From a virus: 28,598 nucleotides of DNA. Position numbers and translations under genes: made by a program. The stretch is taken from IMG/VR virus record IMGVR_UViG_3300031963_000715, positions 1-28,598 of that record; one strand, written 5' to 3'. The notes beneath the pieces are model-generated. The model saw only the letters and a list, made by a program, of their open reading frames with translations, was not told the origin of the DNA and did not search any database. Below are positions 3,623 to 15,124 of this stretch, in pieces (position 1 is the stretch's first letter; each line of letters opens with the position of its first letter).

Positions 3623-3646
3623 GGCCCCGTTTCCGGGGCCTTTCTT
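3623..3646 (+). terminator. Hairpin terminator
   Basis: Stem GGCCCC (3623-3628), loop GTTTCC, GGGGCC (3635-3640), then TTTCTT. It is followed at once by the CTGTATTGTTC motif. Confidence 0.85.
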
Positions 3647-3657: not shown

Positions 3658-3674
3658 CTAAGTGTTCGGCAGCG

Positions 3675-3947
3675 ATGCCTCTCCAAATGGCAACCATCCC
3701 CACCATCCACCTCAACGGCACCGGCTTCACCACACTGCGAGATGAATACGCCGCTGCTTACGATGCCATCGAAAAGGCAATGGAAGCACTTGCTGCAGCC
3801 ACTCTCAATGGGCGCGATTACTATCCGCAGGAACCTGGCGCTTATTACAAGGCTCGCGCTGAGCGTGATGAAGCCCTAGACAAGCTTCGTGATGCCAGTA
3901 TTTACGTTGGCGAAATGCTCGCTGGCATTTGTGACCAGCAACGCTGA
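3675..3947 (+). CDS. Conserved hypothetical phage protein
   Basis: A 90-residue protein. The opening TIPTIHLNGTGFTTLRDEY, the helical middle (two A/E/L-rich stretches) and GRDYYPQEPGAYYKARAER match a small phage hypothetical family that I recall as starting IPTxHLNGTG. The fold is probably helical. Start is ATG 3675 or ATG 3687 (MATIPT); the second fits the family better, but the first is closer to the upstream promoter-like motif. It is a single-gene operon bounded by hairpins at 3623 and 3959. Confidence 0.7.
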   Translation: MPLQMATIPTIHLNGTGFTTLRDEYAAAYDAIEKAMEALAAATLNGRDYYPQEPGAYYKARAERDEALDKLRDASIYVGEMLAGICDQQR

Positions 3948-3958
3948 TTTCTAGACTA

Positions 3959-3978
3959 GGGGCCATTAGGCCCCTTTT
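3959..3978 (+). terminator. Hairpin terminator
   Basis: Stem GGGGCC (3959-3964), loop ATTA, GGCCCC (3969-3974), then TTTTC. It lies immediately before ATG 3980, so the T-tract borders the next gene's start. Confidence 0.8.
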
Positions 3979-3979
3979 C

Positions 3980-4192
3980 ATGCCTTTCCCCATTGGAACT
4001 CTCGTCGATCTCTACGATTCAGGCTTTAAACAATGGAGGGGCGAATACACAGTGGTGAAGATATATCCTGAAACTGGCTTGCATAAGATCAAGAACACCA
4101 AAACCAATAGTCAACAATTCGTTAGCGAAGACAAGCTCCGCATGGGCCGCCTCCGGCCTTTTCGCATGGACTGCCTTTATGAAGGCTTGTAA
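3980..4192 (+). CDS. Small hypothetical protein
   Basis: A 70-residue basic protein starting MPFPIGTLVDLYDSGFKQW. The pattern of short strands around glycine and charged turns (GTLVDLYDSG, EYTVVKIYPETG, HKIKNTKTN) looks like a small SH3/Tudor-like barrel, but I cannot assign a family. It begins right after a terminator with no separate leader, so it is either translated from read-through or has a promoter overlapping the hairpin. The codons end in a palindrome (AGGCTTG/CAAGCCT, 4183-4199). Confidence 0.6.
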   Translation: MPFPIGTLVDLYDSGFKQWRGEYTVVKIYPETGLHKIKNTKTNSQQFVSEDKLRMGRLRPFRMDCLYEGL

Positions 4193-4199
4193 CAAGCCT
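4183..4199. repeat. Inverted repeat across the stop codon
   Basis: AGGCTTG (4183-4189) and CAAGCCT (4193-4199) flank the TAA stop. There is no T-tract afterwards, so a terminator role is weak. Confidence 0.45.
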
Positions 4200-4218
4200 C
4201 GTTGAGCGGGGCGTGGTG

Positions 4219-4229
4219 CTGTATTGTTC
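4219..4229 (+). promoter_or_regulatory. Repeated CTGTATTGTTC motif, copy 2
   Basis: Exact copy of the 3647 motif, here 40 bases before ATG 4270. Confidence 0.45.
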
Positions 4230-4269
4230 TCTGCATGGGCGGCGACGCTCCCTCGTTAAGGAACCAACC

Positions 4270-4650
4270 ATGGCAATCATCAACCACTCCGTCGAACAGC
4301 TCACTGGTCCTGGCTATTGGACTAAGTTCGAGGGGCTTGAGCGAATCAAGATCACTATCACTGTGCCCAACTGGCACGAGCCTTTCCCCACTCAGCAAAG
4401 AGCTGGTGCCGCCAATCCTCGCGAGCTTGAGCTGATTGGCCTGCTGCACGTTTGCCAGAGCTGGTATATCAATGGTCCCGTGATGGATCAATGGACCATC
4501 AGCACGCTCTCTGGCCCTATCAAGGTACCTGCTGGCACTCGCATTGTTTCTGAGCCTGTGCCTGAGAAATGGGCAGCATGGGAGCAGGAAGCCAGCGAAG
4601 GCACCAAGCAGTGGTGGGCCTATTCCAATGGTCGCACGGCCTTCTGTTAA
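4270..4650 (+). CDS. Hypothetical protein
   Basis: A 126-residue protein starting MAIINHSVEQLTGPGYW. It is rich in tryptophan and proline, with strand-like segments (RIKITITVPNW, WTISTLSGPIKVPAG) that suggest a beta-rich fold. I recognise no family. ATG 4270 is chosen over upstream in-frame starts because it follows the common AACCAACCATG-type leader seen before other genes here, and translation upstream runs through the regulatory motif. It is the only gene between the motif at 4219 and the terminator at 4663. Confidence 0.65.
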   Translation: MAIINHSVEQLTGPGYWTKFEGLERIKITITVPNWHEPFPTQQRAGAANPRELELIGLLHVCQSWYINGPVMDQWTISTLSGPIKVPAGTRIVSEPVPEKWAAWEQEASEGTKQWWAYSNGRTAFC

Positions 4651-4662
4651 GCATTGTTACTA

Positions 4663-4688
4663 GGCCCTGGAAACAGGGCCGTTTTCTT
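4663..4688 (+). terminator. Hairpin terminator
   Basis: Stem GGCCCTG (4663-4669), loop GAAA, CAGGGCC (4674-4680), then GTTTTCTT. Strong stem with a GNRA-type tetraloop. Confidence 0.88.
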
Positions 4689-4689
4689 C

Positions 4690-4697
4690 TATTGTTC
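4690..4697 (+). promoter_or_regulatory. Repeated TATTGTTC motif, copy 3 (short)
   Basis: TATTGTTC directly after the terminator, 19 bases before ATG 4717. The preceding bases (TTC) differ from the CTG of the other copies. Confidence 0.4.
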
Positions 4698-4716
4698 CTT
4701 TGTTCGCAACAAAACC

Positions 4717-4962
4717 ATGCACCGCACCATCGAAGGCCACAGAGAAGATCCGTATTTGGCCAAGCTTGAAGCTGATCGCCAAGCCCAGCACAGCGGCTAT
4801 GGCGTGCAATCTTATCTGTGTGCTGATGGCTCCATAAAGTGGGAAGCCTATGGTTGGGAGCGCACTACAGAGCTTTCCATCCACACCACTTCCTATGGCA
4901 TCTTTGACCATAAGTGGCAAGCTGAACAATATTTCAACTCTTGCATTAATGGCCAGCAATGA
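4717..4962 (+). CDS. Hypothetical protein
   Basis: An 81-residue protein (MHRTIEGHREDPYLAKLE to FNSCINGQQ) with strand-like SIKWEAYGW and ELSIHTTSYG segments and a final helix containing KWQAEQYFNS. No family recognised. It opens an operon of five tightly packed genes (4717-5854) that share overlaps of 4 to 7 bases or very short gaps, so the products probably act at the same stage of infection. Confidence 0.65.
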   Translation: MHRTIEGHREDPYLAKLEADRQAQHSGYGVQSYLCADGSIKWEAYGWERTTELSIHTTSYGIFDHKWQAEQYFNSCINGQQ

Positions 4963-5189
4963 ACAATTCACAGTTAGCCCTTTCCATTAATCAACGCAAC
5001 ATCTACTTGCATTATTTGGCCCACAAGAAAAAGCATGGAGATGAGCCATGCAAGGCTCCAAAATGTCCTTTGCAAGGGAACAGACTTGCAGACCATTTGA
5101 AGGCGATGGAAAAGCTCGAAGAGCGAGGGTTCATTCGCCTTATTCGTCACTCTGACGATTACCTTTCTTGGACCATTGTTTCTCCTTAA
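4959..5189 (+). CDS. Small winged-helix-like hypothetical protein
   Basis: A 76-residue protein overlapping the previous gene by ATGA. It shows HYLAHKKKHGDEPCKAPKCP with two cysteines, then LADHLKAMEKLEERGFIRLI, which reads like the recognition helix and wing region of a small winged-helix protein (LxxLExRGxIxxx). The final SDDYLSWTIVSP would be the last strand. DNA binding is an inference from this pattern only. Confidence 0.55.
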   Translation: MNNSQLALSINQRNIYLHYLAHKKKHGDEPCKAPKCPLQGNRLADHLKAMEKLEERGFIRLIRHSDDYLSWTIVSP

Positions 5190-5193
5190 AACC

Positions 5194-5415
5194 ATGCCTT
5201 TTCCCGTTTCTTTTGTTTCAGAAGATGAATATGGCGTGCCTTATGAGGCGCACACTTTCTCTTCCATTGAAGAACTCTATGACGAAATACATGCCCTTGA
5301 TGAGCTTCTTGATGAAGCTTCCGCAAGCAGGGCCTATATCATCAGGGCAGCATTAGATCAGCTCAAGCAACTCGCTCATGATATTGAGCTTGAAGACGAG
5401 CAATTGCCAGAATGA
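5194..5415 (+). CDS. Small acidic hypothetical protein
   Basis: A 73-residue, strongly acidic and helical protein (MPFPVSFVSEDEYG to IELEDEQLPE). Acidic, alpha-helical small phage proteins can mimic DNA or bind host proteins, but nothing here proves that. Start ATG 5194 lies 4 bases after the previous stop. The stop overlaps the next start. Confidence 0.6.
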   Translation: MPFPVSFVSEDEYGVPYEAHTFSSIEELYDEIHALDELLDEASASRAYIIRAALDQLKQLAHDIELEDEQLPE

Positions 5416-5561
5416 TTCCCTTCACTATTGTTGCCCATAAACAAGGGCAACGCCGCACGCTTCAACTACTAGCCAGAGACCAAGCTACAGCCATCCTCTC
5501 TGCTCAAGAGCTTCTCCATGACTGGTTCCTTTCCGTTCCTTCGCTTTCCCCACAGTGGTAA
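5412..5561 (+). CDS. Very small hypothetical protein (49 aa)
   Basis: A 49-residue protein (MIPFTIVAHKQGQRR to PSLSPQW) overlapping its upstream neighbour by ATGA and its downstream neighbour by 7 bases. The continuous chain of overlaps argues that this short frame is translated. No family recognised; the HKQGQRRTLQ part is basic and the rest helical. Confidence 0.5.
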   Translation: MIPFTIVAHKQGQRRTLQLLARDQATAILSAQELLHDWFLSVPSLSPQW

Positions 5562-5854
5562 CCATCAAAACGTACCAAGACAACGGCCCCTACTTCGGCG
5601 CTACCCAAGGCTCCTATCAAGCCGCCACGCTTCAACAGCTCATCTTTCACGTGAGGCTTGCTATAGAGGACAGAGAGGACGTGGTGGCTGTGTACGGCCC
5701 TGATGGCGCTTGCAGAGGCATCTGGAACCGCGAGATTGAAGGCCACGTGGATAGCGCTGGTGATACCATCGTCGATCACGAAGGCTACGAGCTGCTACGC
5801 CCTAGCACTAAGGAGAAATGGATGTGGCACCACCTCCAAGAGCTTGTGGCTTGA
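5555..5854 (+). CDS. Hypothetical protein
   Basis: A 99-residue protein starting at GTG 5555 (reading MVTIKTYQDNGPYF). It has a helical block (LQQLIFHVRLAIEDREDVV), a strand pair AVYGPDGACRGIW, and an acidic middle before WMWHHLQELVA. No family recognised. It is the last gene of the 4717-5854 operon and is followed by a strong terminator. Confidence 0.65.
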   Translation: MVTIKTYQDNGPYFGATQGSYQAATLQQLIFHVRLAIEDREDVVAVYGPDGACRGIWNREIEGHVDSAGDTIVDHEGYELLRPSTKEKWMWHHLQELVA

Positions 5855-5874
5855 TTGTTACGCTTTATTAACGA

Positions 5875-5896
5875 GGGGGCTCCGGCCCCCTTTCTG
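5875..5896 (+). terminator. Hairpin terminator
   Basis: Stem GGGGGC (5875-5880), loop TCCG, GCCCCC (5885-5890), followed by TTTCTG. Confidence 0.85.
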
Positions 5897-5907
5897 CTGT
5901 ATTGTTC
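5897..5907 (+). promoter_or_regulatory. Repeated CTGTATTGTTC motif, copy 4
   Basis: Exact match to the copies at 3647 and 4219, again right after a terminator and 41 bases before ATG 5949. Confidence 0.45.
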
Positions 5908-5948
5908 TCTTGTTGGGCGAGATCCCGACAGTCCTTTGCTTCCCCACC

Positions 5949-6203
5949 ATGGAATTCCTTGTTAACGTTGGCGGCCTCCTCATTAAGCACAATGAAGAGC
6001 AGCTCATTTCTCTCATTGCTCAGTTCATCAATGAAGGCAAGCCTGGCTGCGGCTTCTTCATCAAAGGCGTGGGCTGCATTGCTAAGCACGAAGATGGTCA
6101 AATGATGATGGGCCGCACCATTGAAACTGTTAGCCGCCTGTTCAATAAAACCAGCGACGACATCATGCACACTGTTAAGCGTTGGGCCTCTGAGACTGCT
6201 TGA
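5949..6203 (+). CDS. Hypothetical protein
   Basis: An 84-residue protein (MEFLVNVGGLLIKHNEE to HTVKRWASETA). The first half is helical with hydrophobic faces (LISLIAQFINEG); the second half has CGFFIKGVGCIAKHEDGQ, two cysteines in a strand-turn-strand. No family recognised. It is the only gene between the 5897 motif and the hairpin at 6212. Confidence 0.65.
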   Translation: MEFLVNVGGLLIKHNEEQLISLIAQFINEGKPGCGFFIKGVGCIAKHEDGQMMMGRTIETVSRLFNKTSDDIMHTVKRWASETA

Positions 6204-6211
6204 ACTAGCAA

Positions 6212-6230
6212 GGGGCGCCCAAAGCGCCCC
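6212..6230 (+). terminator. GC-rich hairpin, probable terminator
   Basis: Stem GGGGCGC (6212-6218), loop CCAAA, GCGCCCC (6224-6230). The following sequence (GCTCTCTCC) is pyrimidine-rich but has no clean T-tract. Confidence 0.55.
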
Positions 6231-6250
6231 GCTCTCTCCTCCTTGAAACC

Positions 6251-6442
6251 ATGCAAGACGCTATTAACATTCTCGCCATCAGCAAAAAAGGCAAAAGCCG
6301 TATTGGCACCAAGCTCACCACTGGCATTGTTGAGCAGGATCATCACGACAAGCTTTTTGTAGTGTTTCCTGAACTAAATCAATGTCGATGGATTAAAAAG
6401 GACAACGATCCTGATTTTCGCATTATTGAGGAGGATTTCTGA
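6251..6442 (+). CDS. Small hypothetical protein
   Basis: A 63-residue protein (MQDAINILAISKKG to FRIIEEDF). Alternating strands (GIVEQDHHDKLFVVFPEL, CRWIKKDNDPDFRII) suggest a small beta-barrel. It heads a five-gene overlapping operon (6251-7377) that contains the SSB-like gene. No family recognised. Confidence 0.6.
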   Translation: MQDAINILAISKKGKSRIGTKLTTGIVEQDHHDKLFVVFPELNQCRWIKKDNDPDFRIIEEDF

Positions 6443-6618
6443 TGATTGGCGACGAACAACTTTTGCATTTCACTGAAGATTGGTGGCGTAGCTTTATGGT
6501 TTACGAAGAAGAAGAAGGGCGGGCTTACGCTAGTCACGTGTTTAATCATGTGCATAAACAACACTTTGTTGATTTCTTGCGCGATGCTTTTGCCGAACTG
6601 AAAGACGAGGACAATTGA
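6442..6618 (+). CDS. Small acidic hypothetical protein (58 aa)
   Basis: A 58-residue protein (MIGDEQLLHFTEDWW to ELKDEDN) whose ATG overlaps the previous stop by one base (TGATG). It is acidic with aromatic clusters (WWRSFMVYEEEE, HKQHFVDFL). Its place in an unbroken overlapping operon supports translation. Function unknown. Confidence 0.55.
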   Translation: MIGDEQLLHFTEDWWRSFMVYEEEEGRAYASHVFNHVHKQHFVDFLRDAFAELKDEDN

Positions 6619-6620
6619 CC

Positions 6621-6965
6621 ATGGGGACAAATTATTATCTTCACGCCCCAAAATGCTTTCATTGCGGCAAGGAAGAAGAGCCTCCTATTCACCTTGGTAA
6701 AAGCTCTTGGGGCTGGTGCTTCAGCCTTCGTGTGATGCCAGAAGAAGGCATTTGCAATTGGCAAAACATTCAACAACTTATTGAAGACAAGCTATGCGAA
6801 GAATGGTGCATAAAAAATGAATATGACGAGCAAATTAGCTTGGTTGATTTTATTAAAACTGTCACTAGACGTAGTGGCTCGCTTCGCCGACACGATATTG
6901 ACCATTGGCATTGCATTGGCCATGGTGAAGGTACTTACGACTATATCATTGGAGAATTTTCATGA
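6621..6965 (+). CDS. Conserved phage protein with zinc-binding-like start
   Basis: A 114-residue protein starting MGTNYYLHAPKCFHCGKEEE. The MGTNYY start, a CxxC pair and a following HLGKSSWGWCFSL block form a recognisable small phage protein family in which Cys and His probably bind a metal. The C-terminal half contains RRHDIDHWHC, giving further His and Cys ligand candidates. Its biochemical role is not known to me. It overlaps the next gene by four bases (ATGA). Confidence 0.7.
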   Translation: MGTNYYLHAPKCFHCGKEEEPPIHLGKSSWGWCFSLRVMPEEGICNWQNIQQLIEDKLCEEWCIKNEYDEQISLVDFIKTVTRRSGSLRRHDIDHWHCIGHGEGTYDYIIGEFS

Positions 6966-7222
6966 GCAGGCAAATGACGCCCATTGGTCGTCTTGGTCCC
7001 GTGGCCTACCAGGAACTGCCAAACGGCTCCGCTCATGCTTCCTTTGACATTATTATTGACAGAGGCTCTAAAACCACGCCAGTGCCTTGTGAAGCATGGG
7101 GCATCCTTGCAGAACAAGCTTTTTCAATGGACGAGGGGAGTTTGATTGGCTTGATTGGCTCTCTCACCATTGATAGGACTGTTCGCATTGAAACCATTGA
7201 ACACTTAGGCAGGCCTCTCTGA
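6962..7222 (+). CDS. SSB-like OB-fold protein
   Basis: An 86-residue protein with the strand order of a single-stranded DNA-binding OB fold: PIGRLGPVAYQELPNGSAHA, then SFDIIIDRG, then CEAWGILAEQA, then GSLIGLIGSLTIDR and a final IETIEHLGRPL. In bacterial SSB the equivalent blocks are IGRLG, NGxAVxxFxxA, WxxVxxWGxLAE, GxxVxVxGxL and xLGR. It is shorter than usual SSB, with no acidic C-terminal tail, so it may lack partner docking. It lies about 180 bases upstream of the repeat-rich region, which would fit a role in replication. Confidence 0.6.
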   Translation: MSRQMTPIGRLGPVAYQELPNGSAHASFDIIIDRGSKTTPVPCEAWGILAEQAFSMDEGSLIGLIGSLTIDRTVRIETIEHLGRPL

Positions 7223-7377
7223 TGATCCTCATTGATTTCTTCACTGAAGACTGCTGCAAGGGCACTGAGCTGGTTGAAGGCTGGTATTGGTATGAAGACG
7301 ATGGAGAAGCAGTGGGAGGGCCGTACGAAAGCGAAGAAGCCGCCTTAAAGGCGGCTTTTGATGGGCATGGCTGGTGA
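7222..7377 (+). CDS. Very small acidic protein with a terminator in its 3' end
   Basis: A 51-residue acidic protein (MILIDFFTEDCCKG to KAAFDGHGW) starting in the previous stop (TGATG). The segment GWYWYEDDGEAVGGPYESEE followed by an alanine-rich helix looks like a small single-domain protein resembling short DUF-type modules that end ExAxxAAxxG. The codons for its last helix form a full intrinsic terminator (7337-7359). Function unknown. Confidence 0.55.
   Translation: MILIDFFTEDCCKGTELVEGWYWYEDDGEAVGGPYESEEAALKAAFDGHGW
7337..7359 (+). terminator. Intrinsic terminator inside the coding sequence
   Basis: Stem AAGCCGCC (7337-7344), loop TTAAA, GGCGGCTT (7350-7357), then TT. It overlaps the last codons of the 7222-7377 gene and closes the 6251-7377 operon. 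Confidence 0.75.
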
Positions 7378-7399
7378 GACACGGGCCGTCGCGTATTTA

Positions 7400-7526
7400 G
7401 GGCACGGCCAAGAAAAGGCTTATTTTGAAAAATTGGAACCGGCCCCAAAAAGGCTTGTTTCAAGAAAAATTGGGCACGGCTGGTTTTTGGCTTGTTTAGG
7501 GCACGGCTGATTTTTGGCTTCTTTTA
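7400..7526 (+). repeat. Four imperfect direct repeats (GGGCACGGC family)
   Basis: Units start at 7400, 7435, 7472 and 7499. Each has a GGGCACGGC-like head (the second reads GGAACCGGC) followed by an A/T-rich stretch containing GGCTT and TTT. The last two are spaced by 27 bases, the first two by about 35-37. Confidence 0.7.
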
Positions 7527-7529
7527 TAC

Positions 7530-7568
7530 CGTTTTATAACACTATCGTTTTATAACACTGCCGTTATA
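7530..7568 (+). repeat. 16-base iterons, two full copies plus a partial
   Basis: CGTTTTATAACACTAT at 7530 and CGTTTTATAACACTGC at 7546 are followed by CGTTATA at 7562. The strict 16-base period and A/T-rich content resemble initiator-protein binding iterons. Confidence 0.65.
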
Positions 7569-7626
7569 TTCTCCAATCGCCATATCACCATATCGTTGTA
7601 TGACGCATCCCGCATAGCCGCATGGT

Positions 7627-7640
7627 AGTACGTCTGTACT
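7627..7640. promoter_or_regulatory. LexA-box-like palindrome 1
   Basis: AGTACGTCTGTACT fits the cyanobacterial LexA consensus that I recall as RGTACNNNDGTWCB at every position. It is a perfect AGTAC/GTACT inverted repeat with a 4-base centre. Confidence 0.55.
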
Positions 7641-7642
7641 AT

Positions 7643-7656
7643 AGTACACTTGTACT
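7643..7656. promoter_or_regulatory. LexA-box-like palindrome 2
   Basis: AGTACACTTGTACT also matches RGTACNNNDGTWCB throughout. It begins 16 bases after site 1, so the two sites lie about 1.5 helical turns apart. Confidence 0.55.
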
Positions 7657-7680
7657 TGTGGCAATCCCCAACTGTCACAT

Positions 7681-7694
7681 AGTACGTTTGCACT
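7681..7694. promoter_or_regulatory. LexA-box-like palindrome 3 (one mismatch)
   Basis: AGTACGTTTGCACT has the same layout with one change (GCAC for GTAC) in the right half. It lies directly next to the GATAAGC palindrome pair. Confidence 0.45.
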
Positions 7695-7733
7695 GATAAG
7701 CCAAGCTTATGGGAGTGATAAGCTGAGCTTATG
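7695..7733. repeat. Two GATAAGC palindromes in direct repeat
   Basis: GATAAGCCAAGCTTATG (7695-7711) and GATAAGCTGAGCTTATG (7717-7733). The second is a perfect ATAAGCT/AGCTTAT inverted repeat around one base. The start-to-start distance is 22 bases, about two helical turns, as expected for paired operator sites. Confidence 0.65.
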
Positions 7734-7772
7734 TTGCAAAATGTTACAAAAGCTTGACTCCACAATCGGTAT

Positions 7773-7896
7773 ATAACGATAGCGTTATGCCCTGGTGATA
7801 CGTTCGCTGATATAACGCTTGGGTTGTTTGTATTATCACGCTGTTGTTGTTTGTAGTTCTGCAGATGCGACATCTGCATCATAACGATGGCGTTAT
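7773..7896. repeat. Two ATAACG-N4-CGTTAT palindromes
   Basis: Perfect inverted repeats ATAACGATAGCGTTAT at 7773-7788 and ATAACGATGGCGTTAT at 7881-7896, 108 bases apart. The CGTTAT half-site also appears in the iterons (7562), which hints that one protein reads both. Confidence 0.65.
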
Positions 7897-7914
7897 ACGA
7901 TGGCCCGATGGCCT

Positions 7915-7934
7915 GATTGTTGCGGATTGTTGCG
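7915..7934 (+). repeat. Tandem 10-base repeat
   Basis: GATTGTTGCG occurs twice in a row (7915-7924 and 7925-7934). Confidence 0.7.
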
Positions 7935-8191
7935 AGGGTTGACTTTTGCCGCATCATTCTGTATTTCACGCGGGCGCCCGCGTTTCGTTCTTTATTCGCT
8001 CGCATCTGCCTTTCGTGTGAGCCCGTACCATCTCACCCCCAGGCGCGTCAAGGCAACGCCCCGCCATAGTGTGCGCTTTGCTAGGTGACCCCATTTGCGC
8101 AGCGTTGACAGAATCCCGGCCGTGGATGCCGTATTCTTCTCTCAGCGGCAAACGGAGCGATCCGCAGCCGCCCCACGATCAAACAAACATC

Positions 8192-8335
8192 ATGAAACTT
8201 TCCCCTTTTCCTGTTCTACTGATTGCGCTTGCTATCGGCACCGTATGGGCCGGCCAGGATGCATCCGCGCGGTTCAATCGCTGCACAGAATCGCAATCTT
8301 TGGCACACTGCCGCCTTATCTTTTACGGCCGCTGA
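8192..8335 (+). CDS. Small secreted peptide with C-x8-CR motif
   Basis: A 47-residue peptide with a clear signal sequence (MKLSPFPVLLIALAIGTVWA) and a mature tail of about 25 residues: RFNRCTESQSLAHCRLIF plus YGR. The tail shares C-x8-C-R-(I/L) with the membrane peptide at 1885-2070. It is the first gene after the long regulatory region, so that region probably drives it. Export across the inner membrane and a disulfide in the periplasm are inferred. ATG 8192 is chosen because the signal peptide begins there. Confidence 0.65.
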   Translation: MKLSPFPVLLIALAIGTVWAGQDASARFNRCTESQSLAHCRLIFYGR

Positions 8336-8376
8336 TTCTCTCAAGCATTCCGCAAACATTCTCTCAAACTAAAATC

Positions 8377-9288
8377 ATGCCCGCCACAATCAACAGCCGC
8401 GCCAAACTGCCCACTGATCTCGCTTCAATGGGAAAACAGTATAAAATCTCTTACCGTGACCTTTTGAGCACCAATCCCAAGACTGAAAAGTCAAAAGTCC
8501 AAACCTACATCTTGCATCTCGCCCCCGATAAAACTTCTGGCGTTAACGTTTGCCCCGGTGCTGGCAACTGTCGGAAAGTCTGCCTGCACTTTGCCGGGAA
8601 TCCTGTTTATATGACAAACAAACAGGCCGCTAGAATCCGCCGTACCTTAGCATTCGCAGCAGACAAACAGAGATTCGCGCGGTTGATCGTTTGTGCAATC
8701 CTAGGCAAGCTTGCTAAACATCCCGGCGAACCTATTGCAATTCGCCTAAATGGAACGTCCGATATTGCGTGGGAGAATGTAGATTTTACCATCGTGCCAG
8801 AGTTTGCAACATTCTGCCGCGTTAAGTTCGGCCATGATTTGCCCATTGGCAAGCGGAACATCTTTGAAGTGTTTAACTACATTGCAAACAATGGAGGGCC
8901 AAAAGTACAGTTCTATGATTACACCAAAATCAAGCGTAACTGGGCAGAATGTCAGCGCCTTGGCTACCATCTCACGTTCAGTTTTGACGGCTGGAACAAT
9001 GCCGCCAATCTTAAAATCTGCCGGGATGCCTTGCAAGCTGGCGTTAACGTTGCGGCTGCATTCAATCTTAAGCGCGGCCAATCTTTGCCGGATTGCATCG
9101 ATGGAAGCCGTTTCAATCTCCCGGCATCGTGTCTCTTTACTGGCGGAGTGTTGGCAGTTCTTGATGGCGACCTTACGGATTATCGTCCGTCTGATGCAAC
9201 TGGCGGCCACATAGTCGGCTTGCGCTTCAAACTACCCCACGGCATTAAATACTCTGAAGCTGATAAGCAAGCATTCTGCATCGCCTGA
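8377..9288 (+). CDS. Gp88-like phage protein with Cys motif
   Basis: A 303-residue soluble protein. Near residues 55-75 it has VNVCPGAGNCRKVCLHFAGN, a C-x5-C-x3-C motif (C59, C65, C69) of the type found in the Gp88/DUF7227-like phage proteins, and later IRLNGTSDIAWEN, HLTFSFDGW, and GGVLAVLDGDLTDYRPSD. The alternating strand and helix pattern suggests a barrel-like alpha/beta fold, and the three cysteines could hold a metal or iron-sulfur centre. Function of this family is not known to me. ATG 8377 is chosen; the frame stays open upstream to 8095 but that part covers the secreted peptide gene. A strong terminator follows. Confidence 0.6.
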   Translation: MPATINSRAKLPTDLASMGKQYKISYRDLLSTNPKTEKSKVQTYILHLAPDKTSGVNVCPGAGNCRKVCLHFAGNPVYMTNKQAARIRRTLAFAADKQRFARLIVCAILGKLAKHPGEPIAIRLNGTSDIAWENVDFTIVPEFATFCRVKFGHDLPIGKRNIFEVFNYIANNGGPKVQFYDYTKIKRNWAECQRLGYHLTFSFDGWNNAANLKICRDALQAGVNVAAAFNLKRGQSLPDCIDGSRFNLPASCLFTGGVLAVLDGDLTDYRPSDATGGHIVGLRFKLPHGIKYSEADKQAFCIA

Positions 9289-9293
9289 CAATC

Positions 9294-9317
9294 AGGCCCG
9301 CAATTGCGGGCCTTTCT
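9294..9317. terminator. Hairpin terminator
   Basis: A perfect self-complementary stem AGGCCCGCAA/TTGCGGGCCT (9294-9313) followed by TTC. Confidence 0.8.
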
Positions 9318-9341
9318 AGCCATCCTCTCGCAATCCTCCAG

Positions 9342-9503
9342 ATGAACACTGCACGCGCCACCAAAGCACAGTTGATCGAGATTCTCGAGATTCTCTCCGT
9401 TGAAAAGGAGGCTGCACTTAGCCTTGCCAGCCAAAAACAACAACAACTAACAGTGGCCTTAGCATTGGCGGCCATAGCCTCTCTCGTCGCTTTGCTGTTC
9501 TGA
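9342..9503 (+). CDS. Small tail-anchored membrane protein (53 aa)
   Basis: A 53-residue protein with a helical, charged N-terminal half (TKAQLIEILEILSVEKEAAL) and one C-terminal transmembrane helix (LTVALALAAIASLVALLF) that ends at the stop codon. The N-terminal part has heptad-like hydrophobic spacing and could form a short coiled coil in the cytoplasm. It lies alone between two terminators, so it forms its own transcription unit or depends on read-through. Function unknown; candidates include holin-like or membrane-anchoring roles. Confidence 0.6.
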   Translation: MNTARATKAQLIEILEILSVEKEAALSLASQKQQQLTVALALAAIASLVALLF

Positions 9504-9551
9504 GAGGCTCCCACAAGCGCCCACAAGCGCCCAACAATCAAACCAGCCACC

Positions 9552-9574
9552 AGGCCCCTTAAGGGGCCTTTTTA
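9552..9574 (+). terminator. Hairpin terminator
   Basis: Stem AGGCCCC (9552-9558), loop TTAA, GGGGCCT (9563-9569), then TTTT. A classic intrinsic terminator. Confidence 0.88.
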
Positions 9575-9660
9575 ATGCTTTCACGGCCCATAGGGTGGCG
9601 GCAGGAGATTGGCGAGAGGATCGGTGCAGTCTGGAGAATGGGAGAACCTAGGGAGCATCT

Positions 9661-9681
9661 CTCCAGTTAGTGGAGTTTTTT
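9661..9681 (+). terminator. Small hairpin terminator
   Basis: Stem CTCCA (9661-9665), loop GTTAG, TGGAG (9671-9675), then six Ts. There is no gene immediately upstream, so it may end a short untranslated RNA. Confidence 0.65.
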
Positions 9682-9709
9682 AATCCCGATATTACAGGTC
9701 GGGATTAAA
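9679..9709. repeat. 11-bp inverted repeat, bidirectional hairpin
   Basis: TTTAATCCCGA (9679-9689) and TCGGGATTAAA (9699-9709) around a 9-base loop. It overlaps the T-tract of the 9661 terminator. It could end minus-strand transcription from the HNH gene. Confidence 0.6.
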
Positions 9710-9862
9710 TTTCCTTCTGTAACGTAGTGTGAAACGGTATCAACGGATACAGACAGTGGGGAGCAGTAGCGGGAGGGTTTGATGCTGCGGGGCTGCGGTA
9801 TATGCTCCGAAATGTGGCGCCATTTTTCATCTAGAAAATCGTCCTCAGTATTTATACCTAGT

Positions 9863-10243
9863 CTAAAATTCCAAGCTATTAACGATGGCTTCTCCGACGG
9901 CTTTTGTTACTAGTTTTAGTTCTTCGTGAGTGGCGTCATTTTTGATTGCATTGGCTCGATTGCTAATTATCCAAACGTTTCCTTTTACATAGCCACGTTC
10001 TGGATCAATGCGATCCAGGGAGGGGCTATTGGAGAGAGCACCATGTCCTACTCCACGTCGCAAGGACCATTCCAAGGGAACGTTAAAGATGGGGCAGTGC
10101 GAAGGGACTATTGAGCGAATATAAGGGAGGTCAATATCGAAGGGAAGATTTTTATTTTTTGCTCTTGATCTAGCCTTAGTGACCATACTTTTTGTTTGAC
10201 GCATCACTGGATTTTGGCGATCATATTCGTAGTCGTAATTCAT
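9863..10243 (-). CDS. HNH-type homing endonuclease
   Basis: A 126-residue basic protein on the minus strand. After a basic N terminus (KSMVTKARSRAKNKNLPF) it shows SHCPIFNVPLEW, then SPSLDRIDPERGYVKGNVWI and ISNRANAIKNDAT. LDRIDPxxGYxxGNV...NxxK is the signature of a beta-beta-alpha-metal phage HNH family related to endonuclease VII-like enzymes: D and the later N/H positions coordinate the metal. Such genes are usually selfish elements inserted next to conserved phage genes. It stands alone, opposite to its neighbours, inside a largely non-coding stretch. Confidence 0.75.
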   Translation of the reverse strand: MNYDYEYDRQNPVMRQTKSMVTKARSRAKNKNLPFDIDLPYIRSIVPSHCPIFNVPLEWSLRRGVGHGALSNSPSLDRIDPERGYVKGNVWIISNRANAIKNDATHEELKLVTKAVGEAIVNSLEF

Positions 10244-10452
10244 GGTGTCGCAAAGACTTGAGGAATATTAACAAGCGAAAACTCAATGGCATCATGCCGA
10301 AAGCAAGTCCGAAGGACGCAGCTTGAGGCATCTCCAGAGATCTCGGACGATTAGCTAGACCAATGGAGGCGCCCAAGCGCCGTAATGACGAACAAAAGCC
10401 AGCACAAGACAATTCGCACCCTCTCTTCTCCATCGTTTTCCTTCTGTGAAAG

Positions 10453-10484
10453 GCGGCCCTAAGGCCGCTGCTCTAGTTTTTTTG
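10453..10484 (+). terminator. Hairpin terminator
   Basis: Stem GCGGCC (10453-10458), loop CTAA, GGCCGC (10463-10468), then TGCTCTAG and a run of seven Ts. The T-run is ten bases from the stem, so it may be inefficient. Confidence 0.65.
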
Positions 10485-10605
10485 TATTGCCACTGTCTTT
10501 TTAGTATTTCCCCGGCAGCGACCACAATTTCAGCGACCCATCACATAAGTCTGGGACAGCTTTTTTAGTACGGGCCTTTTATTTTCGCCGCTTGTCTAGA
10601 TGCCT

Positions 10606-10684
10606 CGCCCTTGGGGGCTCAGCTTGTCTAGCTTTTCGCGGCTAGTTAGGCCTTTTGTTAGTAGACGCTCCGCCCTTGGGGGCT
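10606..10684 (+). repeat. Direct repeat CGCCCTTGGGGGCT, two copies
   Basis: Identical 14-base boxes at 10606-10619 and 10671-10684, 65 bases apart. Each can fold on itself (GCCC with GGGC). The flanks are only partly similar. Confidence 0.7.
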
Positions 10685-10733
10685 ACGCTCGCTTGAGGCT
10701 CTCGTTTGAGGAGCGTCGTCTAGCTGCGGAGCG
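10664..10733 (+). other. Candidate structured RNA with alternative stems
   Basis: GACGCTCC (10664-10671) can pair with GGAGCGTC (10710-10717), while the overlapping CGCTCCGC (10666-10673) can pair with GCGGAGCG (10726-10733). The two stems exclude each other. No known RNA family recognised. Confidence 0.35.
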
Positions 10734-10938
10734 CTTTCAGCAGTTGTCAGCAGCTCCGCTTCGGCTATCGTATCTCGCACTGTGGCTCAAATGTGGCGTT
10801 TTTGGTATCGCAGCGAACATTTTGGCTAAATTCTTCCAAGTTTCTTAAGGATTCAATGGGAAAGCTGCATTTTGTATTAAATGCCACTTGTGCAATTGTT
10901 AATAACGACTAGCGTGAGATGATCTTCGCAAAGCTTCT

Positions 10939-11130
10939 ATGTGGGGCCTTCCTGATCGCCAGCCATTTAATATTGGCCCGTATAAATTGTGGCCATGTTT
11001 TAGCAAGCCAGAATTTCAATGGTTTTCTGCCATTGATGGCAAGCCGTATTACTTCCGCACGACCAACGAAGCCAAACTATTTATTAAGGACTTGCTGGCC
11101 ATGGACGACCCGGAAGGGCTTTGCGACTAG
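10939..11130 (+). CDS. Small hypothetical protein
   Basis: A 63-residue protein (MWGLPDRQPFNIGPYKLW to MDDPEGLCD). The reading is natural: FSKPEFQWFSAIDGKPYYF looks like two strands with aromatic residues, followed by a helix (TNEAKLFIKDLLAM). An alternative frame from 10919 lacks such a pattern. It precedes the ribonucleotide reductase gene and the hairpin at 11166. No family recognised. Confidence 0.55.
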   Translation: MWGLPDRQPFNIGPYKLWPCFSKPEFQWFSAIDGKPYYFRTTNEAKLFIKDLLAMDDPEGLCD

Positions 11131-11165
11131 GGCCGTTTGCGCTAGTCTGCCTTAGTTGATTCTCG

Positions 11166-11186
11166 GGGGACTATGGTCCCCTTTTG
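11166..11186 (+). terminator. Hairpin terminator
   Basis: Stem GGGGAC (11166-11171), loop TATG, GTCCCC (11176-11181), then TTTTG. It lies 8 bases before the start of the reductase gene, which therefore needs its own promoter or read-through. Confidence 0.8.
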
Positions 11187-11193
11187 TTGTCTT

Positions 11194-12636
11194 ATGAAGC
11201 TGAAGGAAAAGGCAAAATGTGAGCCAATTGCCCGCACGGGGCGCGTGCAGGATTGGCTGGATAGTCCTGATGGACGTTTGCCCGTGAGCTGCACGGTGTT
11301 CAACGTAGAAGATTCAATGGAGGGCGAGGATGGCATTGAAGCATCTTGGCGGTTTGTTAGCCACGGTTTGCGCAATGGTGCGGGCGTCGCTGTTCATTTG
11401 TCTTCTTTGCGCGAAAGGGGCGCTGAAAATGGCAAAGGCCTCGTGGCAAGTGGACCAGTAAGTTTTGGCAAGATTTATTCCACGCTTAATGAAATCTTGC
11501 GTAGGGGCGGTTTGTATAAAAATGGGGCTGTAGTTCTTCATCTTGACTATTCCTCTCCTGATGCCATCGAATTTGTTAGTGCATCACGCAGTGAACTTCC
11601 TTGGGTGAAGCGTTGTTTGAACGTTGATGAAAATTTCCTTTCTGCATCATCTCCTGAACTGATTAATGCCTGTCTTCGTGCCATCTCTTCTGGCGATCTC
11701 TGGCTCAACAAAATCCGCCACGATAATCGTGGAGAACGCATCCGGGCTAATGTCTGCTTGGAGGTATATCTTCCGCATCGTGGCACTTGTCTTCTTCAGC
11801 ACGTTAATTTGGGGGCATGTACGCTTGACAACATTCAAGGAGCGTTTGTCGAGGGCATGACGCAGCTTTGTGAGCTGCATGGTCGCACTGGCGTTGGTGA
11901 CACTGGGGAATATCTGCCTCCCTCCATTGATAAACAAATTGGCTTGGGCGTGCTGGGGCTGGCTAATTTCCTTGCCATCCATGGAATTAGCTACAAAGAC
12001 TTTGGCGATGCCATTGAAGCCTATCTTGATGAGAATGCTCATCCTTGGAGCTATTGGCAGGATAAGCCCGTTGGCAAGGCTGTATGGGAAATCGATCAAG
12101 GCATTCAGAAAGCAGGAGAAATCGCTCGTGAGCATGAAATGGAACGTGCTTTCTGCATTGCTCCCACTGCGTCATGCTCCTACCGTTATCTCGACACTAA
12201 GGGTTTTACGACCACGCCAGAAATTGCTCCTCCCATTGCTCGCACAGTAGATCGTGACTCTGGCACATTTGGCGTGGAAAGCTTTGACTACGGCGAAGTG
12301 GAAACCGCTGCTGAAGTGGGCTGGGAGGCTTTCTTTAAAGTTGCTAATGGGTTAGTTCAGTTGTATCAACGCACTGGTCTTTTCCATGGTTATTCGTTTA
12401 ATTCATGGTCAGACATTGTGAATTATGACGAAGTGTTCCTGAAGGATTGGCTAGACTCTCCTCAGACGAGCCTCTATTACAGCCTGCAAGTCCTGCCTGA
12501 TACTCAGCGCAAGGACGACGCATATGCTGCGTTGGACGACGACTTTAAGAGCATGTTTGGTCTCAATGAAGAGACCGAGCAGGATTCTGCGTCTTGTTCC
12601 GTAGAGGCTGGATTCTGCGCTGCCTGCTCAGAGTAG
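11194..12636 (+). CDS. Ribonucleotide reductase, short catalytic (alpha) subunit
   Basis: A 480-residue protein that reduces ribonucleotides to deoxyribonucleotides. The key residues are visible: C33 in PVSCTVFN and C209 in NLGACTL would form the active-site disulfide, and N186-C188-E190 in ANVCLEVYL is the radical cysteine with its partners (matching N437, C439, E441 and C462 of E. coli NrdA by spacing). APTASCSYRY is the phosphate-binding motif, and the tail CAACSE carries a CxxC redox pair. About 190 N-terminal residues of class I enzymes, including the ATP-cone, are absent, so it lacks the usual activity regulation domain. The partner beta subunit is at 13108. ATG 11194 follows a terminator directly. 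It may belong to the short class I/II-like cyanophage enzymes. Confidence 0.85.
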   Translation: MKLKEKAKCEPIARTGRVQDWLDSPDGRLPVSCTVFNVEDSMEGEDGIEASWRFVSHGLRNGAGVAVHLSSLRERGAENGKGLVASGPVSFGKIYSTLNEILRRGGLYKNGAVVLHLDYSSPDAIEFVSASRSELPWVKRCLNVDENFLSASSPELINACLRAISSGDLWLNKIRHDNRGERIRANVCLEVYLPHRGTCLLQHVNLGACTLDNIQGAFVEGMTQLCELHGRTGVGDTGEYLPPSIDKQIGLGVLGLANFLAIHGISYKDFGDAIEAYLDENAHPWSYWQDKPVGKAVWEIDQGIQKAGEIAREHEMERAFCIAPTASCSYRYLDTKGFTTTPEIAPPIARTVDRDSGTFGVESFDYGEVETAAEVGWEAFFKVANGLVQLYQRTGLFHGYSFNSWSDIVNYDEVFLKDWLDSPQTSLYYSLQVLPDTQRKDDAYAALDDDFKSMFGLNEETEQDSASCSVEAGFCAACSE

Positions 12637-12637
12637 T

Positions 12638-12643
12638 TATAAT
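12638..12643 (+). promoter_or_regulatory. TATAAT -10-like element
   Basis: A perfect TATAAT directly after the reductase stop and immediately before the hairpin that covers the LAGLIDADG start. No good -35 box is apparent, so it is a candidate promoter only. Confidence 0.4.
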
Positions 12644-12668
12644 TTACTCTCTTACGGGAGAGTAAATT
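12641..12668 (+). other. Perfect 11-bp hairpin over the endonuclease start codon
   Basis: AATTTACTCTC (12641-12651), loop TTACGG, GAGAGTAAATT (12658-12668). The stem contains the GAGAG ribosome-binding-like sequence and the first two bases of the TTG start. It could either end the reductase transcript or hide the endonuclease start from ribosomes. Confidence 0.65.
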
Positions 12669-13029
12669 GCCAACCAACGAAGAGCTTGCTTGGTTTGCGG
12701 GATTGTTTGAGGGCGAAGGGTGGATCAGCGTTAGCTATCGCCACAATGCTTCCAAAACAAAACGCAAGCCTTATTACCTTATGGTCCGAATGTCCATCAA
12801 GATGACCGATTTGGATACCCTTGAGAAGGTTCACGCGCTATTCGGCGGTGGACTGGTATCAACGAAGGTTCCAGATAATCGCAAACCTTGCTGGACTTGG
12901 ACACTGGGAGACAAAATCAAATGTTCAACGCTTGGGCATCTGATGTTTCCTTATATGGGTCGGCGCAGGCAATTAAAGCTCTGTTCAATGTTTGACGCCA
13001 TCAACGATCACATTGACGAGTATTCATAA
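12667..13029 (+). CDS. LAGLIDADG homing endonuclease
   Basis: A 120-residue protein with a single LAGLIDADG-type helix at residues 6-17 (LAWFAGLFEGEGWIS), whose acidic residue binds the catalytic metal; single-motif members act as dimers. The rest, with DLDTLEKVHALFGGG, CWTWTLGDK and LKLCSMFDAINDH, is the usual alpha-beta scaffold. Homing enzymes cut a homologous site lacking the gene so as to copy themselves. It sits free-standing between the two reductase genes, a preferred site for such elements. Start is TTG 12667; there is no intron sequence that I can see. Confidence 0.85.
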   Translation: MPTNEELAWFAGLFEGEGWISVSYRHNASKTKRKPYYLMVRMSIKMTDLDTLEKVHALFGGGLVSTKVPDNRKPCWTWTLGDKIKCSTLGHLMFPYMGRRRQLKLCSMFDAINDHIDEYS

Positions 13030-13053
13030 GGATTAAATCCTCCCCAAAAAAAG

Positions 13054-13075
13054 AAGGGGCCAGAAGGCCCCTTTT
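13054..13075. terminator. Hairpin terminator
   Basis: Stem AAGGGGCC (13054-13061), loop AGAA, GGCCCCTT (13066-13073), then TT. Symmetric enough to work in both directions. Confidence 0.85.
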
Positions 13076-13107
13076 CTCCTCACACACTATTGAACGATAC
13101 CACGACC

Positions 13108-13842
13108 ATGACTACGAAGAGCCCCTATCTGTCGATGATCGCCAAGAAACGGCCTTGGCAAGCAGTTGCCGTGGACAAGGGCGTTGTTCAGGAAGGTAGC
13201 GAGGCGACGCTCGGTAAGCTGCTGGCGCTGCGCCACCTGGAGCTGCCCGTGAAGGACTTTCTGGAGCAGGGGCTAGAGCGTGACCTGCCTTCCACTCCAG
13301 GCGTGGTGGAGGCACTGCGGCATAACCAAGAGGATGAGCAGCGGCATGACCAGGCTCTTAACTACATTGTTGCCGCCCATGGTTCTGATGAAAAAGCCGA
13401 GAAGGAAGTGGAAGGCATTTTGCAAGCATGGCAGGAGCATCCCGCCCACCCCATTTTGAAAGCTGCCATTCTTGAGCGGAGCATTTTCTTCGTTGTGCTT
13501 CCGTTCTTCCGTTTTAATGGCGATATGGGCATTCGCACAGTGGCGGCTGATATTAGTCGTGACGAGATTACCCACGTTGGCGTGCATAGCCTTGTTGCCA
13601 AAGAGCTTGATGAGAATGCTGGGCAGAGCTTGAACAAACTGCGTCGTGCCACTGCATTGTGGGCATTTGATGCGCTGGGTGCTAGCGAGAACAAATGGTT
13701 GAATAAGGATTTCTGGCTCAAGCAAAGCGACAGCTTGTTTGAGAAGGGCAAGGCAGATGGCCTTGCGGAAACACAACGGAGCCGGATGCCTGCGTTCTTT
13801 GAGGCGGCCAACACCAATCTGCCTTCCTACGGCAGAGCTTGA
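13108..13842 (+). CDS. Ribonucleotide reductase beta subunit (ferritin-like, no canonical tyrosine)
   Basis: A 244-residue protein of the ferritin-like di-metal family. Ligand candidates are E77 and H80 in EDEQRHDQ, E123 in ILERSIFF, and E153 and H156 in RDEITHVG, giving the two ExxH motifs and the isolated Glu of ribonucleotide reductase beta subunits; E45 could be the first ligand. In class Ia/Ib enzymes the radical Tyr lies four residues after the first His; here that position is L84, while Y86 is two further on. It may use a metal-based radical, as class Ic or Id enzymes do. It pairs with the alpha subunit at 11194. ATG 13108 is preferred over TTG 13090. Confidence 0.75.
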   Translation: MTTKSPYLSMIAKKRPWQAVAVDKGVVQEGSEATLGKLLALRHLELPVKDFLEQGLERDLPSTPGVVEALRHNQEDEQRHDQALNYIVAAHGSDEKAEKEVEGILQAWQEHPAHPILKAAILERSIFFVVLPFFRFNGDMGIRTVAADISRDEITHVGVHSLVAKELDENAGQSLNKLRRATALWAFDALGASENKWLNKDFWLKQSDSLFEKGKADGLAETQRSRMPAFFEAANTNLPSYGRA

Positions 13843-13956
13843 TGCTATAGTTACTGCGGCATGCGCCTAGTTCATCAGGTCAAGCAGTTTGCTCTGCTTT
13901 CAGCCCCTCATTAGGCTATTGTTGTTCCCGCTCTGCATTAGCATCGGGCTGATAGA

Positions 13957-14006
13957 GCCTAAGACTCTGAAGCGATTAGCTCTTGTTAATCGCTTCACGC
14001 TTAGGC
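13957..14006 (+). other. Long two-part hairpin upstream of the tRNA-like gene
   Basis: Outer stem GCCTAAG/CTTAGGC (13957-13963 and 14000-14006) and inner stem GAAGCGATTA/TAATCGCTTC (13969-13978 and 13987-13996) with an 8-base loop. There is no T-tract. It ends six bases before the tRNA-like gene. Other pairings occur upstream (AAGCAG/CTGCTT near 13882-13900). Confidence 0.55.
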
Positions 14007-14011
14007 CATCT

Positions 14012-14079
14012 GGTCCTGAAGTGTTGGCACACGTCATGCAGATAGCATGGAATACTGGGTTCGATTCCCAGCAGCGCCT
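14012..14079 (+). tRNA. tRNA-like gene, anticodon position reads GAT (Ile), unusual
   Basis: A full cloverleaf can be drawn. Acceptor GGTCCTG (14012-14018) pairs with CAGCGCC (14072-14078) with one C-C mismatch and one wobble. D stem GTGT/ACAC (14021-14032) has a loop of four bases; anticodon stem TCATG/CATGG has loop CAGATAG; T stem CTGGG/CCCAG has the invariant TTCGATT loop. Oddities are the 4-base D-loop, the acceptor mismatch and A instead of T at position 33. It is therefore either a divergent phage tRNA, a decaying one, or the tRNA-end copy of an attachment site. Position 34-36 reads GAT. Confidence 0.5.
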
Positions 14080-14094
14080 TGTTTCCATCGAATC

Positions 14095-14652
14095 ATGATT
14101 AATTGCTGGCTCACGTCAGACAATCATTTCTGCCATGAGAAAATGTATAGTTTTCTCCGTCCAGATGGAGAGAAAGTGCGTCCATTTCAGAATGCAGAAG
14201 AGGGCGATGCTTTCATGGTGGAACAATGGAACAATCGAGTGAAGCCCAAGGATCGCATTTATGTGCTTGGCGATGTGGCAATCGCTCGCCGTGGCTTAAA
14301 GATACTGGAGCAACTCAACGGAAGAAAAGTATTAGTAAGAGGTAATCACGATATTTTCAAGCTGCAAGACTATGCGCAGTATTTTGATGACATTCGTGGA
14401 TGCTTTTATCACCATGAATTTATGCTGAGTCACATTCCTCTCCATCCAGAATTGTTTGAACAAAGATTTAAAGGAAATATTCACGGGCATTTGCATAGCC
14501 ATAACGTAAAGCTTCCTGATGGAGACCTGGATAGGCGCTATCTTAATTGTTGTGTAGAACAACACAACTTCGCGCCCATTCATTGGGACGAGGCGATGCT
14601 TTATTTCTCCTCCAATGACAGAGCGCCGGACCTTCAACACACCTCTGCGTGA
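14095..14652 (+). CDS. Calcineurin-like metallophosphoesterase
   Basis: A 185-residue protein with the full set of motifs of the calcineurin-like phosphoesterase superfamily: SDNHFCHEK (Dx H) near residue 9, YVLGDVAI (GD) near 61, LVRGNHDIF (GNHD) near 83, MLSHIPLHP (H) near 113 and NIHGHLHSHN (GHxH) near 130. These bind two metal ions to hydrolyse a phosphate ester. The compact size is like phage and bacterial YfcE/MJ0936-type enzymes; the substrate cannot be told. ATG 14095 begins 15 bases after the tRNA-like gene. The next gene overlaps its end by 38 bases. Confidence 0.88.
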   Translation: MINCWLTSDNHFCHEKMYSFLRPDGEKVRPFQNAEEGDAFMVEQWNNRVKPKDRIYVLGDVAIARRGLKILEQLNGRKVLVRGNHDIFKLQDYAQYFDDIRGCFYHHEFMLSHIPLHPELFEQRFKGNIHGHLHSHNVKLPDGDLDRRYLNCCVEQHNFAPIHWDEAMLYFSSNDRAPDLQHTSA

Positions 14653-14860
14653 GCCATTGAATCCCATCATCTATCAATCGTTACGAGCCATTGATTGGCA
14701 TAATGCTCAATATTTCTTAACCATGGACCAGTGGCATCTTGAAAAAGCTGCCATCATTAGACAGTATGTCAGAGAGCTGAAGGCTTGGATTTATGAGCAG
14801 GAGGAAAGGGGCATGGAAGCTATGGTGCTTGGCCCTGGGCGAAAAGGCGAGCAAGCATGA
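14615..14860 (+). CDS. Small helical hypothetical protein
   Basis: An 81-residue protein starting MTERRTFNTPLREPLNPII, with an amphipathic helix (QWHLEKAAIIRQYVRELKAW) and a charged C terminus with MVLGPGRKGEQA. It overlaps the phosphoesterase by 38 bases in another frame, so an internal start further down (ATG 14723 region) is possible. No family recognised. Confidence 0.5.
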   Translation: MTERRTFNTPLREPLNPIIYQSLRAIDWHNAQYFLTMDQWHLEKAAIIRQYVRELKAWIYEQEERGMEAMVLGPGRKGEQA

Positions 14861-14876
14861 TCATGAAGCAGACAAA

Positions 14877-15002
14877 GTGGCGCTCATCCGCACATTTATT
14901 TTTGCTTCCTATCTCATTACCAATTGCTTCATCATTGCCAATGCCGTTGTCCATTGGCCAAAAGAAAAGCCCGCCGTAGCGGGCTCTTGTATTCAGCAAT
15001 AA
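14877..15002 (+). CDS. Possible very small membrane protein
   Basis: From GTG 14877 this frame gives about 41 residues with one transmembrane-like helix (ALIRTFIFASYLITNCFI) followed by VVHWPKEKP. A second frame starting at ATG 14857, which overlaps the previous stop as ATGA, gives a 40-residue hydrophobic peptide (MIMKQTKWRSSAHLF). The first reads more like a real membrane protein, but the second has the better start context. Only one is likely to be real. Confidence 0.35.
   Translation: MALIRTFIFASYLITNCFIIANAVVHWPKEKPAVAGSCIQQ
14960..14985 (-). terminator. Hairpin terminator for the minus-strand genes
   Basis: AGCCCGC (14968-14974), loop CGTA, GCGGGCT (14979-14985). Read on -, it is followed by TTTCTTT. 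It ends the minus-strand unit holding the 39-residue gene and the tRNA. Confidence 0.75.
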
Positions 15003-15004
15003 GC

Positions 15005-15124
15005 TCAAAACCAATGAGGCTTGGGCACGTAAGCAACGCCGCGATAGACGAGCGAAGCCATTTGTGCTTCACGCAGACGAGCTGCTTTCTCAAGCTGCTC
15101 TTTAATCAAAGCGAGAGGGTTCAT
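15005..15124 (-). CDS. Very small protein with YRGVxY motif (39 aa)
   Basis: The minus strand gives MNPLALIKEQLEKAAR followed by LREAQMASLVYRGVAYVPKP and HWF. The ending LVYRGVAY recalls the LxYRGxxY motif of the DUF4278-type short proteins of cyanobacteria and their phages. It is preceded by a helical segment. It lies between the tRNA and the terminator at 14968 on the same strand. Too short to assign a function. Confidence 0.55.
   Translation of the reverse strand: MNPLALIKEQLEKAARLREAQMASLVYRGVAYVPKPHWF

Follow-up and report, generated by a model that had tools for sequence, protein, structure and literature searches.

Identification of the beta gene and its metal site

What kind of ribonucleotide reductase (RNR) beta subunit does this phage encode, and where would it hold its oxidising equivalent when leucine occupies the position of the radical tyrosine? 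The window, i.e., the entire 28,598-nucleotide stretch analyzed here (IMG/VR virus record IMGVR_UViG_3300031963_000715), contains an intact reading frame on the plus strand at 13108..13842, which runs from an ATG at 13108 to a TGA at 13840-13842 and encodes 244 aa. Counted from this ATG, the protein possesses the motifs E77-Q-R-H80 and E153-I-T-H156 together with the isolated glutamates E45 and E123, just as an earlier sequence-only reading of the DNA had described, with the right coordinates and numbering; its second sphere comprises D76 and D152. The Leu84 codon, CTT (13357-13359, plus strand), lies four residues after H80 (H+4), at the site of E. coli Y122. The leucine noticed there in the same reading is real, tyrosine being absent from this site in all relatives in which the residue is present. 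Only three tyrosines occur in the window beta, at positions 7, 86 (H80+6) and 241, and a lysine, K49 (13252-13254), is found four residues after ligand 1, E45. Class I betas bind alpha through a C-terminal tail, which is absent beyond Y241 in the window beta, the protein stopping 3 residues past this conserved tyrosine. A pseudogene or sequencing error was ruled out by near-identical intact copies (95-100%) in other metagenome contigs (L001-L028).

By tblastn against 50,697 phage records, the beta matched 56, nearly all from cyanopodo- or cyanosiphophages. These matches were exclusively class Ø betas of cyanophages or uncultured phages, at 47-69% identity, together with that of Microcystis phage Mic1 at 33%; the best was S-CBS4 (68-69%). 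The sole PHROG retrieved, phrog_6799, covered the whole protein (E 1.5e-107). Pfam and NCBIfam searches with the window beta yielded no model above its cut-off, and such beta genes therefore go unrecognised. Several phage records label the beta hypothetical, some label the neighbouring alpha class II, and RefSeq uses "class Ia beta".

An AlphaFold2 model of the beta, based on a 57-row alignment drawn from metagenomes and MAGs (pLDDT 91.7, pTM 0.88), predicts a ferritin-like R2 fold. In the four-helix core of the model, E45 is on helix 32-56, E77, H80, L84 and Y86 are on helix 66-91, E123 is on helix 115-137, and E153 and H156 are on helix 140-166. Every one of the 50 structures that VIA-align listed was a class Ia-Ie R2 (Z 18.4-19.7, about 220 residues). 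At the profile level, the best PDB matches were to C. trachomatis class Ic R2 chains, at an E value (0.21) that is not significant, and hhalign of the beta against E. coli NrdB gave no match except ten residues around DExxH. Placing the protein among class I betas from sequence alone was given up, as the BLAST, HMM and hhalign signal was too weak.

The failure of any Pfam or NCBIfam model to pass its cut-off is what might be expected of an unrelated ferritin-like protein encoded beside alpha, rather than an RNR subunit. Such a reading is scarcely credible, however, given that the structures listed by VIA-align are all R2s, that PF00268 matches 23 of 57 beta relatives, albeit weakly (best 7e-07), that alpha is paired with beta in nearly the whole family, and that the alpha upstream retains a Tyr-Tyr dyad, which serves a beta.

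Assignment to class Ø

The family to which the window beta belongs has been described before. Harrison et al. (2019; PMC6370689) recognised a beta in P-SSP7 (YP_214198) from which the tyrosine is missing, reported its E/EH/E/EH first sphere and unusual second sphere, put the Cyano SP clade forward as a new subclass, If, and suggested NO resistance as the advantage. Burnim et al. (2022; PMC9531940) made the clade class Ø, solved an alpha, modelled a beta, and gave the site as Phe or Leu, likening it to class Ic, with S-CBS4 in their alignment. The missing tyrosine and the NO-resistance idea are thus already published, and the sequence-only reading is a rediscovery in a new sequence.

The traits of class Ø are all found at this locus, i.e., a minimal alpha without an ATP cone, a 244-aa beta as the next RNR gene downstream, two E + ExxH sets, leucine at H+4 and a C-terminus just past a conserved tyrosine. 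Positions 13108-13842 therefore encode a class Ø (Cyano SP) RNR beta, and the original observation is confirmed. The P-SSP7 system likewise has a short beta, downstream of an alpha without an ATP cone, with no radical tyrosine and the same first sphere, and window D76 and D152 equal its D70 and D146. It differs in having glycine where the window has K49, in a beta identity of 50%, and in its overlapping alpha and beta genes, between which the window has a hairpin as well as a homing endonuclease gene. The S-CBS4 beta also has leucine at H+4 and, like that of SS120-1, ends just after the C-terminal tyrosine.

The alpha subunit, operon and host

The class Ø RNR alpha subunit is encoded on the plus strand at 11194..12636, as identified by its match to 7urg_A, the S-CBP4 alpha (E 1.3e-206, 65% identity; next structure 4.9e-07). 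Its reading frame opens at an ATG at 11173; because this codon sits within a hairpin, translation more likely begins at ATG 11194. Numbered from 11173, alpha C40, C195, C206 and Y435-Y436 equal C30, C185, C196, Y420 and Y421 of 7URG, so that the catalytic residues are the same in both. No ATP-cone model was matched in Pfam and NCBIfam searches. The window alpha ends in CAAC (CxxC), in contrast to the CxC C-terminus of the S-CBP4 alpha; CxxC has been reported as the more ancestral form (PMC9531940).

Between alpha and beta lies a free-standing LAGLIDADG homing endonuclease gene with a TTG start (12667..13029, plus strand; PF00961, 8.3e-07). This gene was matched in only seven alpha-beta loci, including that of the window (e.g., L001, L002, L003 and L030), and is absent from S-CBS4. 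Loci without it have an alpha-beta gap of <=122 bp, save a few with other inserts.

Just upstream of beta, at 13054..13073 on the plus strand, is a terminator-like, GC-rich hairpin, AAGGGGCC-AGAA-GGCCCCTT, followed by TTC. A hairpin with a short U-run occurs at this place in nearly all siphovirus-type operons, in gaps of about 50-120 bp, and compensatory, two-sided changes were seen in 7/8 of its pairs. In podovirus-type operons alpha and beta overlap or abut, leaving the hairpin no room. It may act as an intrinsic terminator or attenuator and could set the alpha:beta ratio. Terminator-like sites show an approximately twofold excess over expectation in 1-15100 (32 vs 17.3), and several hairpins of the GGGGCC/GGCCCC type lie between genes in this region. 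The most frequent hexamer of the window is CCATTG/CAATGG (81 vs 22.8 expected from dinucleotides), with a density of 2-3.7 per kb in siphovirus-type relatives; it is rare in podovirus-type and Mic1 loci. CCATTG was rejected as evidence for a promoter: it is common all over the window, but is not among the hexamers over-represented against a higher-order background.

The gene order alpha-beta-phosphoesterase-terL (reverse)-portal is common to the window and Synechococcus siphophage S-CBS4, which makes a picocyanobacterium the most likely host. This synteny supports the earlier suggestion of a phage of an oxygen-producing host.

In Microcystis phage Mic1 (L083, L193), the class Ø beta (61615-62385) and alpha (74610-76049) genes are about 12 kb apart, whereas adjacency of the two has been described as the general rule in class Ø. 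In both records of S-CBP4, the beta gene (L084:2498-3210) is matched as two separate pieces, and its annotated CDS is shorter than the match; this split reflects either a frameshift or a sequencing error within the record of the type phage. A class Ø-like beta was also found in a draft genome of Calothrix membranacea (L186:2998-3714), where its neighbours are an ORF resembling histidine kinases and a small ORF resembling c-type cytochromes (CxxCH). Neither a class Ø alpha nor a PF02867 match was found in that assembly, and 292 other genomes from the order to which Calothrix belongs, searched for the beta as a cellular gene, yielded no clear match; the L186 beta is possibly an orphan cellular copy. 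Finally, class Ø betas were present in "bacterial" or "archaeal" MAG contigs (L176-L192; Verrucomicrobia, Bacteroidetes, Chloroflexi, Euryarchaeota). As these betas mostly nest within phage clades on the tree, many of the contigs probably come from phages and were grouped with bacteria in binning.

Conservation of the metal site and the case against Tyr86

Relatives of the beta were gathered from IMG/VR, genome assemblies and GenBank phages, yielding 156 distinct sequences. Throughout this set, no substitution was found at the six ligands E45, E77, H80, E123, E153 and H156, at the second-sphere residues D76 and D152, or at W17 and Y241; the only irregularities at ligand sites were gaps or X, confined to partial or masked sequences. 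Residue 84 was leucine in 147 relatives, phenylalanine in eight and missing in one, and was never tyrosine. With the ligands and both aspartates invariant and residue 84 limited to Leu or Phe, L84 is not the product of chance or decay.

If position 84 bears no radical, a stable radical might instead be carried by Y86, two residues further along, such that the enzyme would work like class Ia/Ib despite L84. The sequence-only reading had itself named Y86 in the radical position as the finding that would overturn it. Conservation would favor such a shift, Y86 being kept in 142 of 155 sequences, as well as in 30 of the 31 that make up the smaller alignment A1, which includes the 33%-identical Mic1. 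The remaining 13 sequences, however, have Phe (10), Met (2) or Asn (1) at this position with their metal ligands intact. On an 83-row maximum-likelihood tree, the state at residue 86 changed between Tyr and not-Tyr 11 times, and well-supported branches force at least seven changes involving Phe. Having been lost repeatedly while the metal site was kept, Y86 is not an obligatory radical site. The predicted structure argues in the same direction: in a straight-helix calculation (100 degrees per residue, continuous model helix 66-91), residue 84 lies about 20 degrees from E77, whereas the angle for residue 86 is about 180 degrees, so that H+6 should point away from the ligands. A radical on Y86 is therefore most improbable, and for the class Ø clade as a whole it is very unlikely that any tyrosine of helix C holds a stable radical.

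Comparison with other class I betas

Classes Ia and Ib were rejected because their radical tyrosine at H+4 is replaced by L84. Class Ie betas have lost three carboxylate ligands and use a DOPA/Tyr radical; this class was rejected since the window beta has all six ligands and no H+4 tyrosine. The metal-centred radical predicted by the sequence-only reading had been qualified "as in class Ic or Id", which does not hold as worded, the protein sitting in the separate Cyano SP/class Ø clade. Moreover, in class Id the tyrosine is conserved yet not oxidised (PMC6370689, PMC8463856), and the missing tyrosine therefore points to class Ic, not to Id.

A class Ic beta with the Mn(IV)Fe(III) cofactor of the Chlamydia type would account for the residues seen, i.e., leucine at the tyrosine site (L84) and glutamate as ligand 1 (E45). 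Class Ic shares with the Cyano SP clade the E/EH/E/EH first sphere and a redox-inert H+4 residue (PMC6370689), the best, although weak and non-significant, PDB profile matches were to C. trachomatis R2, and the predicted fold resembles that protein (Z 19.6). Against this, the second sphere differs, with Asp in place of C. trachomatis E119, and the clade was apart from Ic in all trees of Harrison et al. (PMC6370689). The C. trachomatis R2 is also longer (346 vs 244 aa) and only about 11-13% identical. Membership of class Ic is not supported on these grounds and seems improbable, although chemistry of the Ic type may still apply.

The rival that betas of the window type resemble class Id, assembling an Mn2(III/IV) cluster with superoxide drawn by the basic K49, is compatible with a metal-centred oxidant in class Ø and is a narrower form of that explanation. 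The class Id R2 of F. johnsoniae has a lysine four residues after the ligand-1 glutamate (Glu67/Lys71), which has been proposed to attract superoxide (PMC8463856). E45 and K49 have the same spacing, and the residue four after E45 is basic in 124 of 155 sequences, window included (Lys 97, Arg 27, Gly 23, Ala 8). The first sphere is identical to that of Id, and no nrdI-like gene is annotated beside beta in S-CBS4 or Syn5. On the other hand, F. johnsoniae R2 retains the H+4 tyrosine that defines class Id and that L84 replaces in the window beta, and K49 gives way to glycine in the P-SSP7 and S-CBP4 types. The K49/Lys71 likeness, which was not found in the class Ø literature examined, is a parallel in sequence and not mechanistic evidence; Id-like activation is a tentative possibility that we would not favor.

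Position 49 has undergone few changes on the tree, being basic on most of the S-CBS4/Syn5/SS120-1 side and glycine on the P-SSP7/S-CBP4 side. Both type members investigated to date, P-SSP7 and S-CBP4, have glycine, which also occupies ligand-1 +4 in E. coli NrdB and NrdF (in the "DSIQG" stretch, by alignment consensus). It is conceivable, if rather doubtful, that class Ø has two activation types, with the basic lineage (window, S-CBS4, Syn5, SS120-1) using Mn2 and superoxide without a tyrosine, and the glycine lineage (P-SSP7/S-CBP4) being activated otherwise (O2, Fe or Mn/Fe).

Proposed mechanism and significance

Taken as a whole, the locus is quite probably explained by a class Ø beta of an S-CBS4-like cyanophage that keeps its oxidant on the metal cluster. 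In hand are a predicted R2 fold, a six-residue dimetal site, Leu84, a class Ø alpha upstream, and the conserved Trp and C-terminal Tyr. Counting against this explanation are a sequence likeness to class I R2s that is close to nil and the missing C-terminal tail, with which class I betas bind alpha. The enzyme would be a two-subunit, O2-dependent class Ø RNR in which beta generates the radical. The beta dimer would bind two metal ions (Mn and/or Fe), and this dimetal site would be oxidised by O2 or superoxide. With no tyrosine within reach, the oxidising equivalent would stay on the cluster, in an Mn/Fe- or Mn2-type state. From there it could pass through W17 and Y241, the presumed radical-transfer residues of beta, and in alpha along the Y436/Y435 dyad to the catalytic residue Cys195, at which NDP reduction would serve phage DNA synthesis. 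W17 precedes helix B and is on that ground the putative equivalent of E. coli W48.

Of the initial claim that the radical is metal-centred rather than tyrosyl, the missing tyrosine stands as observed, and the metal-centred oxidant is likely the best explanation for the window beta, as the most economical, albeit predicted, reading. Burnim et al. (2022; PMC9531940) noted that class Ø proteins can be unstable without metals and made no claim of activity, and a 2026 preprint still describes class Ø as biochemically uncharacterised (PMC12918982). Lacking a tyrosyl radical, the enzyme should be less sensitive to scavengers of such radicals, e.g., NO; this part of the proposed stress resistance had been put forward in 2019 (PMC6370689), whereas any resistance to peroxide or to iron limitation is speculative.

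New here are the census in which tyrosine never occurs at site 84, the arguments against Y86, and the split between K/R and Gly at position 49. Class Ø has been proposed to be basal to RNR classes I and II, and the window adds to it a member of the siphovirus-type lineage. Throughout 155 sequences the radical tyrosine is absent, and the other tyrosine of the same helix is dispensable in evolution. The K/R vs Gly split near the metal site tells which proteins to compare at the bench.
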